From positions 1 through 64,000 of the forward strand of contig JAGLON010000023.1 in assembly GCA_023138975.1 (NCBI GenBank): a stretch of DNA of 64,000 nt. Direction: 5' to 3'. Shown piece by piece: positions 32,054-60,022 of the stretch. Source of the stretch: Candidatus Zixiibacteriota bacterium (GTDB lineage: Bacteria > Zixibacteria > MSB-5A5 > GN15 > JAAZOE01). The notes beneath the pieces are model-generated. The model had not been told where the DNA came from, searched no databases, and saw only the letters and a list, made by a program, of their open reading frames with translations. The translations under genes and the position numbers were made by a program. Numbering within the stretch: position 1 is the stretch's first letter; each line of letters opens with the position of its first letter.

Positions 32054-32091
32054 ACCCGGTGGAAAATATATTCTTCTGCCGGGTCTTTTCT
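32054..32091 (+). terminator. Terminator after the propeller/dockerin gene
   Basis: ACCCGG (32054-32059) pairs with CCGGGT (32079-32084), with GGAA/TTCT inside, followed by CTTTTCT. It lies about 50 bases after the stop at 32006. Confidence 0.65.
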
Positions 32092-32190
32092 ATTTTCACG
32101 ATTCTATTTCCGTCTTTACCTTTTGGAGAAAATATCTTACTTTCGGGTATAAGAGACAAATATAGACTTTATTTCAACTGGAGTTTTTTT

Positions 32191-33378
32191 ATGGCCCGAG
32201 CGTTAATACTGTTCTCTGTCGCCCTGCTGATATTAACCGGCATCAGTTTTGCCAATCCTCCGCAATCTCTCGAACAAGCAAAAGTGCTCGCCAAACAGAC
32301 CGGGAAACCGATCCTGATTGAATTTTACCGCGACGACTGAGAATACTGCGCCAAAGCCGCTCGTGAAGCGGAAAATGAACCATCCATGATCAACGCGCTT
32401 AAAGCGGTAGTTCATCTATCTTTAAGCGCACAATATGATGAGGGTCTTAAACTCTCCTCCGATTATCAGGTAGGCAATACGTTCCCGGTATTCATACTAA
32501 CCAATAGTCAGGGCGAAGTAATTTTTCGCTGGGACGGATTTGGCGGAGCCAAACGATTTGTCAATTCGCTCAAGGCTGGTATGGCTGATTTAACTTCAGT
32601 CAAGGAACGTCGGGCCAAAGTCGCCGTCAATCCTAATTACCGAGATGCTCTTCAACTGGCCAAATATTACTCCGATACCCGCCAGTATCTTGATGCCATA
32701 ACGTATTATAAACTGACACAAAAACTCAGCCCGAGCAAACAGGCTAATTACTCATATCAAATATTTTCAAACACTGCCAATGCGGTCTGGACTGACATCT
32801 GGCCCTTTGATTCGGCTATGACCGCCGCTGATGTTGTCCTTAATTATAAGATTAATAAAAATAATATATCTAAATGCGTCAAAGTTCTTGGCCGGGTTGC
32901 CCGCCGCTCAGGAAGAACCAATGACCTGAGGAACTACCTCTATGCCGCATTAGAAGCTACCGCTAATTCGACCGATTCAAAGCTAACCTTGGCTCATCAG
33001 GAATTTGTGATCGATACTATCTTATATATTACCGGTATCGAAGGTCGTGCGACTCGCTCCAAAGAAGCGACCCTCGGAGCCAACTGGCAAAATGACCCAA
33101 AGAAGTTTTACCCTTATGCCAAGTGGTGCCTGGAGAGGAAAGTCAATCTTAATAAAGCCGAAGCTTATGCCCGAACGGCCGCCGACAGAGCCGGTTCCGG
33201 GGCTTTCAAGGGACAGGTACTGCATACTCTGGCAAGTATTTTGGATGTCGTTGGCAAACATAAAGAGGCCGTTCGCATAATGGAAATGTCGGTCGCTGAA
33301 GACCCCACTAATCCGTATTATGCCAAAGAGTTAGATCGTATTCTTATCAACTGGTCAAAAGCGGAAAGTAAACAATAA
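32191..33378 (+). CDS. Probable selenoprotein: exported thioredoxin-fold protein with UxxC motif and TPR-like tail
   Basis: Read straight from ATG 32191 (GGAG eight bases upstream), the frame runs to a signal peptide (ARALILFSVALLILTGISFA) and thioredoxin-like KPILIEFYRDD. It then meets TGA at 32338-32340, continues EYCAKAAREAENEPSM and stays open for 346 more codons to the stop at 33376-33378: 395 residues in all. The TGA is at codon 50, exactly where the first Cys of the expected CxxC active site belongs, giving U50-E-Y-C53. A SECIS-like hairpin follows (32357-32371). After the thioredoxin domain (PVFILTNSQGEVIFRWDGF) come TPR-like helices (about 150-395). A redox role in the periplasm is likely. 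The alternative is a nonsense mutation or sequencing error of TGC/TGT. Restarting at ATG 32386 is unlikely: there is no ribosome site and it would lose the signal and active site. No sel genes are in the window. Confidence 0.75.
32338..32371 (+). promoter_or_regulatory. UGA codon plus SECIS-like hairpin
   Basis: After the UGA (32338-32340), CCGCT (32357-32361) pairs perfectly with AGCGG (32367-32371) around the five-base loop CGTGA (32362-32366). The loop begins 22 bases after the UGA and has G in its second position. Bacterial SECIS elements are known to place a small apical loop with an early G about 16-37 bases after the UGA, inside the coding region. The stem is short, so this is suggestive and not proof. 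Confidence 0.55.
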
Positions 33379-49803: not shown

Positions 49804-52800
49804 CTATTTTAGCAGAATCATCTTCTTAGATTGAGTATTGGCACCGGCTTTCAACTGGTAAAGGTAAACACCGGTCGCATATTGCTCAGCCTTCCAAACT
49901 ATATCATAGCTGCCGGCTTCGTTCGTACCCGACCATGTCTCCACAACCTGTCCGAGGATATTATAAACGGTCAAACTCCAGTCCGATGCTTCCGGTAATG
50001 AGAATTGTATTGTCGTCACCGGATTGAACGGATTCGGATAGTTTTGGCTTAGCTCAAATACTCTCGGTATATTTTCTATCGTAGTCGATAACGGTCGGCC
50101 GAAGTAATCAGCCGCTTCCACCCGCACCAACTCGGCCTTCCCGGAAACTGGAATCGATAGCAAACGTCCCTGGCCCGGTAAAATTGAGTTGGCTCCGATG
50201 TTGTAAATCAGAACTCTCAATTGCCCATCCTCTGCATTATAGACGACATCCATTGTGTTGGTTGTCTCGCTCAAAATCGGAGCACCGGATTCGGCATTAA
50301 CGTTGAAGATAAGAGCCATAGCTCCGATGTTGGCATTTGAGCTATAATCGACCGTAATTGATTTATTATCAGTATATACCTCAAGCGATACTTTCGCCCC
50401 CGGTAATGGTTTGGCCAGCGGTGCCGCATCACCAATGATTACCCTGATTAAATAGACCAAATCCGCGACCGATAGCGCTGTGCCGTCTCCGTTAACATCA
50501 GAGGCCGCGATAGAACCCTCTACATGCTCCCCAAAGGCGCTCAATCCCGAGATAAAGAAGTTCGTAAACATTACAGCATCCGAGACTTCATTGGCTATAC
50601 CGTTGAGGTTAACATCTCCCCGTGCATCGATTGAGTCAGGATGAATTATAACTATTCCTCCATTAGTGAAATCAACACACCTTTCCGGTCTGGTTTTAGC
50701 TGATTCATCAGGATCAAGACAATAATCCGGCACGCCGTATCCTCCAGGGAACCCGTAGGAATAATTGGTAATGTTATTCCACTCAATATCATAAACCACT
50801 CGCGATACCCAAAGAGTATCTCCCAAGATGCTTGAGAATGAATTATCAGCGCAATCAAACCAGAAGAATTCCACCGGCGCGAATTGACCGCCGTGCGTGT
50901 AATTGTTCGGGACATAAAACGTGACACTTGCGATTGTACCAATTTGACCCTGCCAAGTACAGCTTGGATGATAAGCGCCGTTATTTGTCTCGGCTAATCC
51001 AACTAAGCGTAGAATACCGGTGGGACAATTCTCACAATTACCACTTTCGCCAAAGCGATATGTAAAGTATTCCCAATCACAATTCTCGAACAGTTGGCCG
51101 GCTTCAGCTCCTGAGGCAATAATGACAGAGGGGTCATAAGCTATCAGTATATCAAATCCACCGAGGTCTTTGCCGGAGCCGTTCAGCGTGATATTCAAAT
51201 CACGATAGTGCCCCTGATAAACATTTGGCGCATACTCAATTTGTACGAATAAACACTCGTCAATCTCGACTCCCACTATAATTGTATCAACCGTTTCGGC
51301 CCCACATGAATCTACCGCTGAAACAACAATTGTATATACGCCGGTTGTGTCGGTATCAAAACAGATTTGACCGGTCGTCTCATTGTAGGCTCCAATCGGA
51401 GAAACTGAATACGATTCAAGATTACCGTTTTCATCCTCAATATCTGCTTCAAAGCAAATCTCTCCCATACCCAAAACCAAGGCCTGGAAATCGGACGGCA
51501 GAGTTATCGCCGGCGGGTCATTAAATTCAACTGTTAACCATGATGTATCCGTGTCTATAAGACCGCATGAATCGGTTGCCTCAAGAATAAACGCGTATGA
51601 GCGCTCAATTCCAGTCGCGACATAGAAACAGATTTCTCCGGTTCCTGCATCATAAGTACCATCGTCAGAGACTAACTCACAATTCGACAGGTTTCCGTCG
51701 GGGTCACTACAGGATGCCGCCCAGCAGTAAGTCTCACCGGGTGAGCAGAAGAAATGCTGCATATCATCGCCGGCATGGGCAATCGGCGCGCGGTTAATTT
51801 CAAAGTTGACAATGAACGTTCCCTCACAGAACGCCCCGCATTCGTCATGAGCCTGAACAACTATTGTATCGGACTCGTTACCGCTCGGCGTATGAGTCCA
51901 GTTTCCGGAAACAATTGCCCCCGGTCCGCTCACTAAAGTCCAGTGATCAAAGTTATTATCAGGATCAGTAACTCCCAATGGTAATGAGGCTTCAGTAAGT
52001 CCGCATTGGAACAGTGTTGTATCCGATGGGAGACTGCAGACTGGAGGAAGATTAATCGTCAACGACACTATCATGGTATCATCCCCGGTCAATCCGCATT
52101 CGTCCTCGGCTCGAATTACTATTTCGTATATTCCGGCAGTGTCCACATTGACGCATACCTGATTGCCAACCATCTGAGCATCTCCGCTGTAGATATAGCA
52201 TGTATCCAAATTATTATCCGGATCAGTACAGGTCACCGGGAAGCAATAATCTTCTTTCCCGCATTGGAAGAAGAAATGATCATCACCTGCATTTGCAATC
52301 GGAGCCGAGTTAAAGACAACTTCAATTTCAATAGTATCGACTCCACCGGCCAGATAGTCTCCGCATTCGTCTTTAACTCCAACAATAAACTGCCAAGTAC
52401 CGGCCATTGTCGGAGTAAAACAGAGACGATTATTAAGAGTGTCCAGAGTTCCGCCACCCTGAAGTATCTCTTCCATTACGATATTGTCATCAGGATCATC
52501 AACTGAGTAGTCAAAGCAAAATTCCTCAGGACCGCACATGAATACAGTTGTATCAAAGGGAAGAGTCAAGACCGGTGAAGTATTGATGATAACATTATAT
52601 TGCAGTGAAACGGTATCGGCGTTACCACAGGTATCGGCGACCAGCGCGCTGACCGTGTAACTGCCGTTTGCAGTAGCCGAGAAACACCATAGCCCTGAGG
52701 CGTCAACTGTTCCCGCACCCGATAACCTGCTCCATGTCAAAGCGCCGCCCTCGGAATCGATTGCGCTAAACTGATAACATATATCGTCCGTCGCGCATAT

Positions 52801-55800
52801 AAAGGTATCGACCGGACTCGGCGGATCAGTCGCTACGGGAATATCGTTTACTGTTGCATAAACGCGGAAAATACAACTATCAGAACCGCAGGCCGATAAC
52901 GCGGCAACGGTTATATCATACACGCCCGAAGTGTCAGCATTGAAGCAAACATTTCCAGCATCATAGGTACCAATCGGAGATACAGTTACAAGCGTATCAA
53001 TCGTTATGTCAACCGGACGGCAGATCTGACCCGGCTCACAAAGGAACATCACCGTATCAACCGGACAGCTAACGTCTAATGAGACACCAAACTGTACATC
53101 AATATTTATGATATCCTGACTAAATCCTCCGCACTCGTCAGTCGCCCGAACTATAAACTGGTATATTTCCGAAGCCGTCGGAGTAAAGCAAATTTCATTG
53201 GTGACCGTATCTATCGTACCGGTACCACCCATAAGTTCCTCGACTGCCACATTGTTATCCGCATCGGAAACAACATAATTGAAGCAGTACGATTGACCAT
53301 CACAAAGGAAGAGGCTGGTATCATTAGGCACCGTAACAATCGGATCAGAATTAAGGGAAATGTTGTAAGTCATGGATACTGTATCCGACGCACCGCATAA
53401 ATCGGAAACAGCGGTTGTCATTGTCCATATATTTGTACCGCTGGCCGTGAAACACCAGTTTCCGTCAGGCGTTATTGATCCATCTCCGGAAATCTTGGAC
53501 CAGGTCAACGCCCCACCATCAACGTCATTGGCGCTGAACTGGTAACAGATACTGGCCGCGGCGCATATAAACGTATCAACCGGCGTAGTCGGCATTACCG
53601 CTACCGGTGGACTGTTCAATACCACATCAACCGCAAAGCTGCAGTCGGTGCCGCCACATACCGAAGCGGCACTAACATTTATTACATAATGCCCGCTGGT
53701 ATCCGGTGTAAAGCACACCTGACCTGCGCTATAAGAACCAATCGGAGTCACAGTTACCAAGGTATCCAACGATATTGTCACCGGTCGGCAAATTTGCGTC
53801 GGCGTACATTGGAACACTGTTGTATCAGCCGGACAGGTAATGCTCAAGGGTAAACCGAAATCTACGGTGATATCAGCCGTATCAGTGTATTGTGCTCCAC
53901 AAGCGTCAATGGCCTGTACTATAAACTGATATACTCCGGAAGCGGCCGGAGTGAAACAAACGGTGTTGGTATTGATATCTATCGTACCGGTTGCGCTCAA
54001 AAGCTGCTCGGTAACGATATTATTGTCGCTGTCAGTTGCCGTATAGTTGAAGCAATATTGAGAACCTTCACAAATAAAGATAGCAGTGTCATTCGGCAAT
54101 GCCACCATCGGACCCGAGTTGATATCAACATTATATGTTAGTGAGACAGTATCCGCTGCCGTACAGCTATCAGTTACAACCGCGCTTATTGACCAACTAC
54201 CGTCTCCGGTAACGTCAAAACACCAGTTCCCCCCGGAGGTTATCGCCCCGTCTCCTGATAATTTGGTCCATATCAGAGTTCCGCCATTCGCGTCGGACGC
54301 GCCGAATTGATAGCAAATTTGATCAGAAGAACAAATAAAGGTATCAATCGGAGAAGTAGGAATCACCGCTACCGGTGTGGAGTTTATGACAATATCAGCG
54401 ATAATGTCACAGGTATCAGCTCCGCAATCGGTAGTCGCGATGATATTAATTTCATAATGCCCTGACGTATCAGCATCAAAGCAAATATTTCCGGCAGTAT
54501 AGGTTCCTATCGGTGTAATGGTAAACACCGCTTCGGGTGTCACGACCGATATCGGAACACAAATGTCTCCAGCTTCACAGATAAACAGACTCTGGGACGC
54601 TGGACAGGCAATTTCGGCTGCCTGACCGATATCTACATTATAGACTATTTCACAAGTATCAGATCCGCAGGAAGCATCAGCAATGATTTCGACTATATAA
54701 ATACCCGATGTATCAGGTGAGAAGCAGTGCTGTCCTCCGGAGTATGTGCCCAGTGATACCGAAACTGAAGCGGAAGCAGGAGTTATATCAAGCATGCGAC
54801 AAACTTCGACCGTATCACACAACGATACCGGTATCGGATCAACCGGACAATCTATTGAAGCAAACTCGCCGAAAGTAACCGAGACCACGACAGTATCTTC
54901 GTCAGTAGCTCCACAGCCATCTGTGACACCTATGATAAACTCATAAACACCACTGGCTGTCGGAGTAAAGCAAACAACATCATTATCGGTATCAATCGTT
55001 CCATAACCTGATATCAATGTCTCAATCAAACCCGGGGGTTCTTTTAGGCCATCAGCATCAAAAACAGTATATGAAACGCATATCTCCTGAGAGACACACA
55101 GGAACAAACTCGTATCGGCCTGAGCAGTCATCACCGGAGCCGAATTTATCGTGACATCAATATTGACGGTGTCATAATCTTCGACACCGCATGCATCAGT
55201 TGCCTTTAGAATAAACTCATAAGAGGCTGTAGAGGATCCCGGTGTGAAACATATCTGAGAACCGTTATAACTGCCGGGACCGGAGATTAAATCACAACTC
55301 GTCAGGTTTCCATCAACATCACTGCATCCTGCCGACCAGCATATCTCTGCCGGAACACACTGGAATATGTCATTGTCCGTGCCAGCGTCAGCCACAGGAG
55401 CGGTATTAAGCGTAACGTTAAATGTCACCGTACAGGTATCAGAACCGCATGACTCGTCGGCGATAACTTCTATATTGTAGGTGCCCGCACTTGAGGCCAG
55501 GAAGCGAATCGCACCGTCGGCGTAAATACCTTCGGATACGGAGACTGTTGCCGTTAACGGAGTTATGGTCAGTGGCTGAATTATCGAATCGGTCACACAC
55601 AGGAATTCATCAAAGGCTGAGGTCGGACAATCAATCGAAGCAAACTCGCCCATAGTAACCGAGACCACGACGGTATCTTCGTCGGTAGCTCCACAACCGT
55701 CAGTTACACCGATGATAAATTCATAGTCGCCACTGGCAGTCGGAGTAAAACAAACAATATCATTATCGGTATCAATCGTTCCATAACCTGATATCAGCGC

Positions 55801-58800
55801 CTCTATTAACCCCGGAGGTTCTTTTAATCCATCAGCGTCAAAAACAGTATATGAAACGCATATCTCCTGAGAGGCGCACAGGAACAAACTAGTATCGGAC
55901 TGAGCGGTCATCACCGGAGCCGAATTTATCGTGACATCAATACTGACGGTGTCATAATCTTCGACACCGCAAGCATCAGTTGCCTTGAGAATAAACTCAT
56001 AGGATGCCGTCGCTGCACCCGGTGTGAAACATATCTGAGAACCGTTATAACTGCCCGGACCGGAGATTAAATCACAACTGGTCAGGTTTCCATCAACATC
56101 ACTACAACCGGCCGCCCAGCATATCTCTGCCGGAACACATTGGAAAATAGCATTATCAACACCAGCGTCGGCCATAGGAGCGGTGTTAAGTGTAACATTA
56201 AACGTCACCGTACAGGTATCAGAACCGCACGACTCATCAGCTATAACTTCTATATTATATGTTCCCGCGCTCGAAGCCAGAAATCTTACAGCACCGTCAG
56301 CGTAAATACCCTCGGATACGGAAACTGTCGCTGTTGACGGAGTAATGGTCAGTGGCTGAATTATCGAATCGGCCACACACAGGAATTCATCAAAGGCTGA
56401 GGTCGGACAATCTATTGAAGCAAACTCACCAAAAGTAACCGAGACCACGACGGTATCTTCGTCAGTAGCTCCACAGCCGTCAGTGACACCAATGATAAAC
56501 TCATAGTCGCCGCTAACAGTCGGAGTAAAGCAAATTCTGTCATTGGCAGCATCAAGTGCACCGTATCCAGATATCATTGTTTCAACAAGTGTTGCTACAT
56601 GGGATGCATCGGCATCGGTCGCACTATAGGAGACACAAACTTCCTGAGAGGTGCATAGGAATAAACTCGTATCAGCTTGAGCGGTCATCACTGGAGCCGA
56701 ATTTATCGTGACGTCAATACTGACGGTGTCATAATCTTCGACACCGCAAGCATCAGTTGCCTTGAGAATAAACTCATAAGAGGCGGTCGCCGAACCCGGT
56801 GTGAAACATATCTGAGAACCGTTATAACTGCCCGGACCGGAGATTAAATCACAGTTAGTTAGATTTCCATCAACATCACTACATCCTGCCGACCAGCATA
56901 TCTCGGTTGGAACACACTGGAACACACTCTGATCCGCACCGGCATCGGCTACCGGAGCGCTATTGAAAGAAATCGAAACGGCTAGTGTATCAAATGCGGC
57001 CACACCGCATGAATCGGTAATACTGGCTACGAATATGTATGTACCGACAGTATCAGGTGTAAAACAAAGTTCGGATGACAACTCATTAAGAGTCCCAAAA
57101 GCCGATAACAGCGATAGAGTAGTTGACTGTCCGGCATCACCATCGGATGACGTAAACGGCAGACAAACTTCCTCGCTGGCGCATAAGAAAATTGAACTAT
57201 CTGCTCCGAGAGACAAAGCAGGTGCTTCATTAATATCAAATGTGACGGTAAAGGAAGATTCGCAATATGCCCCACAACTATCCTGGCAACGTAAAGTAAC
57301 GGTCACAGCCTGATCAGTAGTCGGGGTATAACACCAATCTCCTCCAACTAATGAACCGGGACCGGAAATAATCTGGCAGGACTGCAGATTATTGTCAACA
57401 TCAGATGCCGAATATGGAAGACAAACCTGAGTTGGAGCACATTGGAATATTGAAATATCGGAAGGTACGGTACAAATTGGCGCAACGTTAAGCGTTACCG
57501 TTATAAATGCCGTATCAGCATCGGTCGCACTGCAATCATCGGTAGCATCCAGAATAAATCGATATACACCTGATGTATCGGGAGTAAAGCAGATATTGGT
57601 TCCGTCATAAGTACCTGTACCAGCATTGAGGACACATGACTGAAGATTTCCATCAACATCTGTGCAGGATGCCGGCCAGCATATCTCCGTAGGAGTACAT
57701 TGGAAAAAAGACGCATCCGCACCAGCATCGGCCACCGGAGCGGTGTTGAGCGAATAATAAACTACTACCGTATCGAAGCCTTCCAGTCCGCAACTGTCAA
57801 CCGCTCGCATAACAAACTCATAATCAAGCGTTCCGGTGGGAGTAAAGCAGATCTGTGAACCGTCATATGTACCCGGACCGGTAAGCTTTTCGACCAATTC
57901 GAGATTCCCGTCAATATCACCATAGGTCACTGACCAGCAGATTTCAGAAGGAGTACACTGCGAAATCGTCTGATCCGCTCCGGCAGCTACTGTCGGAGCG
58001 TGATTTTCGCAAACAGGGAACGCGAAATGGCTGGTGGGCGCCGACTGCGGCAACGATACCGTTACCAAACCATCAGATGCGGTCACATAGTACTGAAGAC
58101 TGTCAGTGGCGCAGGTCAATTCAGATGAAGGTATCGAATAACAGTATAAACTGTCGGTCCGATTCATTGTTACTGAAGTATAACCGACCGTATCAGAGTT
58201 CCGGTAGAATAGCTGGACCGTCAAATCTTCCTGAGGAGTATCCAGGTCAGTTATATACGCGCAAATCTCAACTTCTGTATCCCAAAGTTGACAGGTACTG
58301 TCTAAAGAAATTGTCGGAGGTGTGCGAACTATAACCGGCGGAGCGACTTCCTGACACGAGGAAGTATCACACACGTCACTGCAGGAGCCATCAGGATTTC
58401 TCCGGCATATCTGAATCGTATGCCAATCGCCGTTCTGCACTGTATCAGGACTGTCATAGCATATCAAATAGCGGCTACAGAGACGGGTTTTAATCTCATC
58501 ATAAACAAATTCAATATCATCTCCCGTGGGAGCATGATTATATGTACCTCCGGTAGCATTAGCAAGTTTTATTAGATACTGCGGATCAAAACTGCTCCCG
58601 AGACTAATGGTATAAATCGGAATACTGGCGCCGTTGGCTAAATCGCAAATCAAAGTGGAGTCATCTCCAAAATAACCATCGCTTAAACCATCCGGAGTGC
58701 CCGAACCTCCACAGTATTGACTGCGATTTTCCATTCCGTCGGTAATTGCTATTACCGCTTTGCTGCCAAGCTCAGTAGTAGTCAGATCAACACCCTTCCA

Positions 58801-59403
58801 GATGCCGTCAAATGCGGCCGTCCAACCATAGGCGGAGAGAGTATTTATCTTACTGTGAAGCAGGGCTTGATCACTGGTAAAATCTTGAACGACATTGTAA
58901 CAACTGGCAAAGGTGACAATCGCGACCCGATCATAAATATCCATCTTATCAACAAAATCATGGGCCGCGTCACGAGCGGCTCCTATCTTGTTGTTAGTGT
59001 TCATACTACCACTCAAATCAATAACAAGGCATATCGATGTAATGCATGAATCCTGAGTCAACTCTTCGACTGTGAAAGAACTTATCGGCGTACCATCCTG
59101 GTAAACACAAAAACTATCTGAGGTCAAGCTACCGATAGGATCACCAGTCGAATCCAAAGCTTCCACGTAGGTGCACATATATGGAAACATCCCACAATCA
59201 AGCTGTGAGACTTGTAAGGAGATAATCGTCTGGTAGAAAAAATCATCAGGATTTACAAACATCCCCGGCGGCGGTGGTGTCGTCTCGATAGAATCATCAA
59301 CGATATAAGGATCGTCATCCGGTCCATAAATAATCGGATCGGCTACGATGTTCGAAAGAAGAACGAAAACCGCAATGAATAAAACATACAGCCAGCGTCT
59401 CAT
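49804..59403 (-). CDS. Giant modular surface protein: VWA, 26 Ig-like modules, cohesin-like, dockerin-like and sorting domains
   Basis: 3199 residues from ATG 59403 (AAGGGG upstream); the frame is open 44 codons further but only this start gives a signal peptide (RRWLYVLFIAVFVLLSNIVA). VWA domain about 122-310 with MIDAS DLSGS (Asp129, Ser131, Ser133) and AITDGMEN. From about 466 to 2715 there are 26 Ig/cadherin-like modules of about 85 residues, typically N.APV...AD.S.F.C...., IC...DVDGN and ICFTP...G.Y.F...A.D.CG, with paired Cys suggesting disulfides. Modules come in sets of three; one set is repeated as 780-bp DNA copies (about 54840-57175). A cohesin-like module (2716-2920), a dockerin-like segment (about 2926-2995), a second cohesin-like region (about 3005-3105) and an NPF sorting domain (3117-3199: LSQNYPNPFNPVTTIQFSL) end the protein. 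Probably an adhesin or scaffold; the ligand is unknown. Confidence 0.9.
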   Translation of the reverse strand: MRRWLYVLFIAVFVLLSNIVADPIIYGPDDDPYIVDDSIETTPPPPGMFVNPDDFFYQTIISLQVSQLDCGMFPYMCTYVEALDSTGDPIGSLTSDSFCVYQDGTPISSFTVEELTQDSCITSICLVIDLSGSMNTNNKIGAARDAAHDFVDKMDIYDRVAIVTFASCYNVVQDFTSDQALLHSKINTLSAYGWTAAFDGIWKGVDLTTTELGSKAVIAITDGMENRSQYCGGSGTPDGLSDGYFGDDSTLICDLANGASIPIYTISLGSSFDPQYLIKLANATGGTYNHAPTGDDIEFVYDEIKTRLCSRYLICYDSPDTVQNGDWHTIQICRRNPDGSCSDVCDTSSCQEVAPPVIVRTPPTISLDSTCQLWDTEVEICAYITDLDTPQEDLTVQLFYRNSDTVGYTSVTMNRTDSLYCYSIPSSELTCATDSLQYYVTASDGLVTVSLPQSAPTSHFAFPVCENHAPTVAAGADQTISQCTPSEICWSVTYGDIDGNLELVEKLTGPGTYDGSQICFTPTGTLDYEFVMRAVDSCGLEGFDTVVVYYSLNTAPVADAGADASFFQCTPTEICWPASCTDVDGNLQSCVLNAGTGTYDGTNICFTPDTSGVYRFILDATDDCSATDADTAFITVTLNVAPICTVPSDISIFQCAPTQVCLPYSASDVDNNLQSCQIISGPGSLVGGDWCYTPTTDQAVTVTLRCQDSCGAYCESSFTVTFDINEAPALSLGADSSIFLCASEEVCLPFTSSDGDAGQSTTLSLLSAFGTLNELSSELCFTPDTVGTYIFVASITDSCGVAAFDTLAVSISFNSAPVADAGADQSVFQCVPTEICWSAGCSDVDGNLTNCDLISGPGSYNGSQICFTPGSATASYEFILKATDACGVEDYDTVSIDVTINSAPVMTAQADTSLFLCTSQEVCVSYSATDADASHVATLVETMISGYGALDAANDRICFTPTVSGDYEFIIGVTDGCGATDEDTVVVSVTFGEFASIDCPTSAFDEFLCVADSIIQPLTITPSTATVSVSEGIYADGAVRFLASSAGTYNIEVIADESCGSDTCTVTFNVTLNTAPMADAGVDNAIFQCVPAEICWAAGCSDVDGNLTSCDLISGPGSYNGSQICFTPGAATASYEFILKATDACGVEDYDTVSIDVTINSAPVMTAQSDTSLFLCASQEICVSYTVFDADGLKEPPGLIEALISGYGTIDTDNDIVCFTPTASGDYEFIIGVTDGCGATDEDTVVVSVTMGEFASIDCPTSAFDEFLCVTDSIIQPLTITPLTATVSVSEGIYADGAIRFLASSAGTYNIEVIADESCGSDTCTVTFNVTLNTAPVADAGTDNDIFQCVPAEICWSAGCSDVDGNLTSCDLISGPGSYNGSQICFTPGSSTASYEFILKATDACGVEDYDTVNIDVTINSAPVMTAQADTSLFLCVSQEICVSYTVFDADGLKEPPGLIETLISGYGTIDTDNDVVCFTPTASGVYEFIIGVTDGCGATDEDTVVVSVTFGEFASIDCPVDPIPVSLCDTVEVCRMLDITPASASVSVSLGTYSGGQHCFSPDTSGIYIVEIIADASCGSDTCEIVYNVDIGQAAEIACPASQSLFICEAGDICVPISVVTPEAVFTITPIGTYTAGNICFDADTSGHYEINIIATTDCGADTCDIIADIVINSTPVAVIPTSPIDTFICSSDQICYQFGASDANGGTLIWTKLSGDGAITSGGNWCFDVTGDGSWSISAVVTDSCTAADTVSLTYNVDINSGPMVALPNDTAIFICEGSQYCFNYTATDSDNNIVTEQLLSATGTIDINTNTVCFTPAASGVYQFIVQAIDACGAQYTDTADITVDFGLPLSITCPADTTVFQCTPTQICRPVTISLDTLVTVTPIGSYSAGQVCFTPDTSGHYVINVSAASVCGGTDCSFAVDVVLNSPPVAVMPTTPVDTFICAAASICYQFSANDVDGGALTWSKISGDGSITPDGNWCFTASGTNIWTMTTAVSDLCGASDTVSMTYNISLNSDPIVTVPNDTSLFLCDGQSYCFNYVVSDADNNVAVEELMGGTGTIDTVTNEICFTPTASEIYQFIVRATDECGGFSQDIINIDVQFGVSLDVSCPVDTVMFLCEPGQICRPVDITIDTLVTVSPIGTYDAGNVCFNADTSGVYDITVAALSACGSDSCIFRVYATVNDIPVATDPPSPVDTFICATDDICYQFSAIDSEGGALTWSRLSGAGTVDASGLWCFSATANGSYTVSALVADTCGNADTVSLQYNVIINTSPVLTLPFDTTVFMCGPEEFCFDYSVDDPDDNIVMEEILQGGGTLDTLNNRLCFTPTMAGTWQFIVGVKDECGDYLAGGVDTIEIEVVFNSAPIANAGDDHFFFQCGKEDYCFPVTCTDPDNNLDTCYIYSGDAQMVGNQVCVNVDTAGIYEIVIRAEDECGLTGDDTMIVSLTINLPPVCSLPSDTTLFQCGLTEASLPLGVTDPDNNFDHWTLVSGPGAIVSGNWTHTPSGNESDTIVVQAHDECGAFCEGTFIVNFEINRAPIAHAGDDMQHFFCSPGETYCWAASCSDPDGNLSNCELVSDDGTYDAGTGEICFYVATGIERSYAFILEATDSCGLIDTDTSWLTVEFNDPPAITLPSDFQALVLGMGEICFEADIEDENGNLESYSVSPIGAYNETTGQICFDTDTTGVYTIVVSAVDSCGAETVDTIIVGVEIDECLFVQIEYAPNVYQGHYRDLNITLNGSGKDLGGFDILIAYDPSVIIASGAEAGQLFENCDWEYFTYRFGESGNCENCPTGILRLVGLAETNNGAYHPSCTWQGQIGTIASVTFYVPNNYTHGGQFAPVEFFWFDCADNSFSSILGDTLWVSRVVYDIEWNNITNYSYGFPGGYGVPDYCLDPDESAKTRPERCVDFTNGGIVIIHPDSIDARGDVNLNGIANEVSDAVMFTNFFISGLSAFGEHVEGSIAASDVNGDGTALSVADLVYLIRVIIGDAAPLAKPLPGAKVSLEVYTDNKSITVDYSSNANIGAMALIFNVNAESGAPILSETTNTMDVVYNAEDGQLRVLIYNIGANSILPGQGRLLSIPVSGKAELVRVEAADYFGRPLSTTIENIPRVFELSQNYPNPFNPVTTIQFSLPEASDWSLTVYNILGQVVETWSGTNEAGSYDIVWKAEQYATGVYLYQLKAGANTQSKKMILLK
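54840..57175 (-). repeat. 780-bp tandem repeat inside the giant gene
   Basis: Lines starting at 54841, 55621 and 56401 align base for base over long stretches (for example CAAACTCGCC, GTAACCGAGACCACGAC). This gives an exact 780-bp (260-residue) period, three Ig-like modules per unit, over about three copies. The third copy differs by a 3-base deletion and some substitutions near 56581-56660. Such repeats promote copy-number change by recombination and can also cause assembly collapse. Confidence 0.85.
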
Positions 59404-60022
59404 ATATGACCCCTTCTTAAGCCCGAAATGAAAATCCTCCGACGTTCCGGACATATAAGTAAATAATAGATTCTGTTTAAATGAATCAAGTAAGGAAGAA
59501 TTGACCGAACGCGCCCCGCTCAAACGATCAATCAAAACGGATATTTATCCGCTTAAGTTGTGACAGTACTTATAGTGAAACCTTTGCGGAACAAACCCCC
59601 GGCGGTGAAGTAAAAAGAATTTCCGGACGTTTATCGTTACCGATTCTTCCTCTCTCGTCCTCCTGTATACCCCGCTACATGCTTTGCCTGTGCGCTCAGA
59701 CAAACACCATGTCTCATGTTACCCAGACTTACTATGCCATTACATAACAAAACATGCAATAGCGGGTATGTTAAAAACTTACCCAGATGTCCTTCAAATG
59801 CTGTTAACTATATGGGGTGTGCTCTTTTTTTACATATTTCGTATGTACAATTCCAATATACTCTTTTTCTCTCATGAGTCAACGACTTTTTGTGGCAACA
59901 AGTCCAATAACTATATAAATATCAACCACTAACGTGGACATAAACCATCATGTTTCAGGCCTATACACATTAAGAACGAATCGCTGTGCGTCATTATGGC
60001 GCACGAGTCTGCCATTAAGCCG
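59404..60022. other. Intergenic region upstream of the giant gene
   Basis: About 620 bp between the giant gene's start and the stop of the MscS gene on the same strand. It must hold the giant gene's promoter. A GTGCG/CGCAC hairpin sits at about 59986-60004 without a T run. A plus-strand frame at 59684-59932 has no supporting features. Confidence 0.4.

Follow-up and report, generated by a model that had tools for sequence, protein, structure and literature searches.

An in-frame UGA at a thioredoxin active site points to an apparently new family of exported thioredoxin-TPR selenoproteins in Candidatus Zixiibacteriota

Results

A thioredoxin-TPR gene contains an in-frame TGA at codon 50

The window, which is the whole stretch of 64,000 nucleotides that was analysed, lies on contig C25 of a 4.15-Mb assembly (G000) that consists of 108 contigs and is 93.6% complete. 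As described in an earlier note on this DNA, a frame begins at the ATG at 32191 with a sequence that resembles a signal peptide, and it contains a TGA at 32338 to 32340, which is codon 50. The open run that the note had reported beyond this TGA in the same frame is indeed long and intact, although it comprises 345 codons rather than 346, extending to the TAA at 33376 to 33378; at the local base composition, the probability of an open run of that length occurring by chance is ∼1e-8. GGAG stands 7 nt upstream of the ATG. The features of the locus are as follows.

32180 to 32183, + strand: probable ribosome binding site, GGAG, from the sequence
32191 to 33378, + strand: predicted selenoprotein gene, 395 aa plus the TAA stop, encoding a putatively exported thioredoxin (UxxC) and TPR protein
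32191 to 32253, + strand: putative signal peptide, about residues 1 to 21 (MARALILFSVALLILTGISFA), with a predicted cleavage site, from the sequence and an AlphaFold helix at residues 2 to 17, then low confidence at residues 16 to 20
32254 to 32583, + strand: thioredoxin-fold domain, about residues 22 to 131, active site U50-E-Y-C53, from PF13899/PF13098, invariant columns, the structural model and the fold search
32338 to 32340, + strand: codon 50, UGA predicted to be read as selenocysteine, from 38 UGA and 12 Cys at the aligned codon
32357 to 32371, + strand: putative bacterial SECIS hairpin, with a complete stem in 36 of 38 UGA genes and in 1 of 12 Cys genes, and with compensatory changes
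32357 to 32361, 32362 to 32366 and 32367 to 32371, + strand: arm CCGCU, loop CGUGA and arm AGCGG of the hairpin
32599 to 33372, + strand: TPR-like alpha superhelix, residues 137 to 394, from Pfam TPR matches, the AlphaFold model (pLDDT 92.6) and best Foldseek matches to TPR superhelices

Two Pfam domains, Thioredoxin_7 (5e-8) and Thioredoxin_2 (3e-6), both span the TGA, with TPR repeats downstream, and PF13098 matches 18 of the 19 family members in a Pfam profile search. The TGA does occupy exactly the first active-site Cys position (UxxC), where the earlier note had placed it. A terminator-like repeat found by eye (ACCCGG...CCGGGT, then TTTT, at about 32054 to 32090) parts the gene from the upstream dockerin gene, and the gene is thus probably transcribed on its own. 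The gene neighbourhood showed no conservation across the 16 related loci compared, the only exception being the downstream CBM9/DUF5916 gene, which is kept in genome G001; the neighbourhood therefore gives no clue to a partner or substrate of the Trx-TPR protein. Elsewhere in the window, positions 49804 to 59535 (− strand) form one open frame of 3243 codons for a giant protein.

Codon 50 is either UGA or Cys across the phylum

The close homologs in named records come from MAGs of Candidatus Zixiibacteriota. A search of 60 related genomes returned 21 full-length homologs, counting the one in the window, of which 18 contain one in-frame TGA, and a phylum-wide search found the family in 49 of 133 genomes. 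The alignment of homologs, proposed earlier as a check, gave a clear answer: among the non-redundant Candidatus Zixiibacteriota members with a readable aligned codon (n = 50), codon 50 is TGA in 38, the window's own counted among them, TGC or TGT in 12, and nothing else in any. Further, C53, P99 and, in the TPR part, Cys313 are invariant in a 19-member alignment, and P99 precedes the next strand, which is the cis-Pro position of the thioredoxin fold. When the U/Cys label was placed on a maximum-likelihood tree, 8 changes were counted, at least 6 of them forced by well-supported branches.

A conserved hairpin accompanies the UGA

Downstream of the TGA, the sequence CCGCU-CGUGA-AGCGG starts nineteen nucleotides from the U of the UGA and forms, at a distance of 21 nt from the UGA, a 5-bp stem with a 5-nt loop, CGUGA; the window copy is a perfect consensus without decay. 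Of the 38 UGA genes, 36 form all five pairs and the remaining 2 form four, compared with a full five-pair hairpin in a single one of the 12 Cys genes. The register (+19) is specific within the gene: the runner-up register reached 10/37 (27%), and the mean of all others was 0.6%. Compensatory changes convert U-A to A-U (L005) or to C-G (L007 and L084), the basal C-G to U-A, and G-C to G-U and A-U. When pairs were counted across 30 sequences, 99.3% of cells were paired, compared with 25–51% when the partner was slid, and 9 cells had changes on both sides compared with a shuffled mean of 1.8. Similarly, the covariation score was 0.328 compared with 0.207 after shuffling, with 0 of 500 shuffles as high; these shuffles ignore relatedness, though the pair changes sit in different tree clades. 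The synonymous sites of the hairpin are nearly frozen, as its codons are 94% modal, compared with 53% at other conserved residues.

The published rules for bSECIS elements prescribe a stem of 4–16 bp, a loop of 3–9 nt and a distance of 16–37 nt from the UGA (PMC13188914, Fig. 2 legend), with a G in the first two loop positions and an MFE at or below −7.5 kcal/mol (PMC13188914). The hairpin agrees with these rules in stem, loop, G position and spacing. Over 45 nt the window copy folds with −7.0 kcal/mol, which is not unusually stable (z −0.1) and narrowly misses the limit of −7.5, and over 60 nt with −8.1; because the energy of this single copy is borderline, the case for the hairpin rests on the comparison and not on folding. 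Judged by this comparison of sequences, we assign the hairpin as a bacterial SECIS element and the family as a Sec/Cys family. The earlier reading of the gene as a probable selenoprotein is thus upheld by the 38 UGA and 12 Cys codons and by a covarying hairpin that belongs to the UGA genes, with one exception among the 12 Cys genes.

Three Cys-type members deserve mention. L112 (G113:C66) carries a relic hairpin with a fully paired stem and the loop CGTGA, and in L099 (G085:C35) the 5′ arm and the loop are intact and the 3′ arm is broken; both look like recent Sec-to-Cys switches as far as their sequences can tell. The third, L014 (G012:C42), lies in a genome that keeps selA, selB and tRNA-Sec (selC), so that machinery loss does not account for its Cys form.

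Two other explanations of the TGA can be weighed against these data. UGA encodes Trp or Gly in some bacteria, and a reassigned code or plain readthrough would place another amino acid at codon 50, a reading to which we attach practically no weight because TGA terminates 4 of the 27 window genes, which argues against general reassignment here, because every non-UGA homolog has Cys and never Trp or Gly, and because a SECIS-type hairpin would be purposeless. A pseudogene or sequencing error, created when a Cys-type thioredoxin acquired a nonsense mutation or was miscalled, might be suspected from the single base that separates TGA from TGC or TGT, from the existence of Cys homologs and from the Sec machinery missing from the assembly (see below). 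However, TGA stands at the same codon in 38 non-redundant sequences from many genera and several families with intact downstream frames, and is therefore not a sequencing error, and hairpin constraint and covariation accompany it. We regard this explanation as refuted by the shared UGA, in agreement with the argument made earlier that a plain nonsense mutation would hardly land on this codon and leave the rest intact.

Selenocysteine at codon 50 is almost certain in our judgement of the aligned genes. The UGA would be decoded by SelB and tRNA-Sec, and the comparison supports a role for the mRNA hairpin at 32357 to 32371 in directing this decoding.

The Sec machinery most likely falls into an assembly gap

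The search for sel genes that the earlier note had suggested succeeded in part: selD is in the genome and SelA is present in 20 of the 20 close relatives searched, but selA and selB were not found in the window's 93.6%-complete assembly, and neither was a tRNA-Sec (selC) above the cut-off. The selD gene (G000:C19:227318-228238, L043) carries its TGA in frame at the established Sec position (CAGUASK) and is a known type of selenoprotein. Three kinds of match in the assembly were rejected. Weak tRNA-Sec matches (at most 44.7 bits, with a cut-off of 47) are other tRNAs, rejected because sub-threshold matches of this kind turn up in almost every genome and in every control; a partial SelB-like match (C57:27-758) is a cut EF-Tu gene beside an elongation-factor G gene; and what Rfam reported as 'rox1' on C47 is a match by chance.

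In the 60 related genomes, SelB was above the family cut-off in 53 and tRNA-Sec in 47, and among the 17 further genomes that carry the UGA gene, SelB was found in 15 and tRNA-Sec over the cut-off in 12. selB directly follows selA wherever the coordinates of both were compared. In G002 the block reads BshB1-like, selC, recG, murB, a large gene, selA, selB, amidohydrolase and glnA (names assigned by eye), and selC directly follows BshB1 in both G001 and G002. When this block was used as a joint query, the window's assembly gave BshB1 (80% identity) on contig C47, which ends 696 nt past the gene, and no close match to RecG, MurB, SelA, SelB, the amidohydrolase or the GlnA of the block. The non-coding final 696 nt of C47 (end of L060), after BshB1, do not contain selC, and therefore the local gene order is somewhat changed in G000.

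Taken at face value, the lack of selA, selB and selC in the assembly, together with the absence of selC from its usual place after BshB1, would suggest that the lineage has recently lost its Sec machinery. The product would then be a 49-residue truncation, or translation would restart at ATG 32386 to give 330 residues without the active site. We consider such a loss very unlikely. The recG, murB and glnA genes of the block are missing too and C47 ends there, as a gap predicts; selD, which itself needs Sec, is intact; two further UGA genes in the genome, selD included, keep intact frames; and the window hairpin has not decayed. An assembly gap is the most likely explanation because recG, murB and glnA are also missing and C47 ends at a conserved position, and we infer that the lack of a single contig is much more probable than a bacterium that has neither murB and recG nor selA and selB.

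Fold and predicted function

The AlphaFold model of the protein (pLDDT as listed above, pTM 0.84) consists of a signal helix, a thioredoxin fold and a TPR superhelix, with U50 placed at the start of a thioredoxin-fold helix. Foldseek matched the thioredoxin part to Thermus thermophilus thioredoxin and to the DsbD C-terminal domain, and the remainder of the protein to TPR superhelices. Similarly, the matches in profile searches were to a putative disulfide isomerase, DsbC, DsbD and designed TPR proteins. With the DsbD C-terminal domain the protein shares profile similarity and a like fold (TM 0.66–0.71 by target length, 22–28% identity), but it lacks the membrane domain and the N-terminal domain of DsbD, has Sec for Cys and carries the attached TPR part; against the DsbD model NF001419 it scored 16.3 bits, well below the cut-off of 330.

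A selenoprotein with a role in thiol-disulfide redox chemistry is, in our view, very likely. Its signal peptide, judged by eye in the sequence, makes export of the Trx-TPR protein likely. Outside the cytoplasm, Sec50 would be the attacking nucleophile and Cys53 the resolving residue in disulfide exchange, in the manner that fold and motif suggest for the DsbD C-terminal domain. Fold and motif also favour a thiol-disulfide reductase, and this is probably the direction of the reaction. Somewhat less firmly, the TPR superhelix is proposed to be a docking arm, one that would most likely bind client or partner proteins.

The main rival to this function is a selenoprotein that acts mainly as a holdase chaperone with a redox side activity, i.e. 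an extracytoplasmic chaperedoxin like CnoX, and not as a thiol-disulfide reductase. In CnoX/YbbN, a Trx domain is followed by a TPR domain as in the window protein (PMC6282202), E. coli YbbN/CnoX (3qou) was among the fold matches, and the TPR part is the larger one and is conserved across the phylum. However, the first motif position is always U or C and the second always C, an invariance that suggests catalysis, and the global fold match to CnoX is poor (TMq 0.20). Further, CnoX/YbbN is intracellular, where it hands clients to DnaK and GroEL, and has CxxC or SxxC with no Sec reported (PMC6282202), whereas the Trx-TPR protein has a putative signal peptide. We therefore judge a mainly chaperone role unlikely and prefer the thiol-disulfide reductase.

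The family is apparently new, and a probable second one lies in the same genome

The kind of protein is known, namely a UxxC thioredoxin-fold selenoprotein with a bSECIS. A catalogue of May 2026 lists 119 prokaryotic selenoprotein families or subfamilies (PMC13188914, Table 1); this table contains no Trx-TPR family, and TPR is mentioned nowhere in the text of that paper, which bears out the earlier remark that the TPR tail is not a standard selenoprotein architecture. In NCBIfam, the window protein had no match near a curated cut-off, and the best E-value among 19 members was 9e-5, to DsbD. No YbbN-specific model figured among the profile matches of the family. Judged against the catalogue and the released NCBIfam models, the family and its TPR architecture are apparently new.

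Two entries come nearest, namely the UxxC thiol:disulfide interchange protein of PF13098, and Trx7/PDZ. The former (PMC13188914, Table 1) has the same Pfam domain and UxxC motif; it is set apart by the table listing, which gives the PF13098 domain only and does not mention a TPR superhelix of ∼260 residues. The Trx7/PDZ (seleno)protein, NF041199, is likewise a selenoprotein family with an N-terminal Thioredoxin_7-type domain, but has a C-terminal PDZ domain in place of the TPR part and its Sec listed at the second position (CxxU); the window protein scored 18.7 bits against its cut-off of 300.

A second exported Trx-TPR gene with an in-frame TGA (SPTUPWC) lies in the same genome at G000:C43:38915-39865 (L049:1416-2366, − strand), where it adjoins gcvP-like genes. 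Its family occurs in 56 of the 60 relatives, 32 of them with an in-frame TGA, and 31 aligned members have 16 TGA and 15 Cys at the same position. A hairpin with the loop CGTGA is found in rows of the same family, and the best selenoprotein model covers part of TsoB, far below the cut-off. The second gene probably represents another uncatalogued selenoprotein family. The two families share the exported Trx-TPR layout, UxxC, the CGUGA loop and the interchange of U and Cys, but they are 25% identical over 194 residues, and the second protein is shorter and its hairpin has another stem.

Discussion

Our results extend the bacterial selenoproteome by a well-supported family, together with a probable second one, from a candidate phylum; in the literature searched, no selenoprotein study of Candidatus Zixiibacteriota was found. 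Standard gene callers would end the protein after residue 49 or place its start too far downstream, and therefore database copies are likely to be wrong.

Tentatively, and with low confidence, the two paralogous exported Trx-TPR selenoprotein families may constitute a selenium-dependent system for extracytoplasmic folding or repair in Candidatus Zixiibacteriota, built on Sec chaperedoxins. If this were true, the repeated Sec-to-Cys replacements, some of them with the machinery kept, would mark shifts in chemistry. Overall, with at least 6 switches between U and Cys that are accompanied by loss of the hairpin, the family offers a natural experiment that can be traced base by base.
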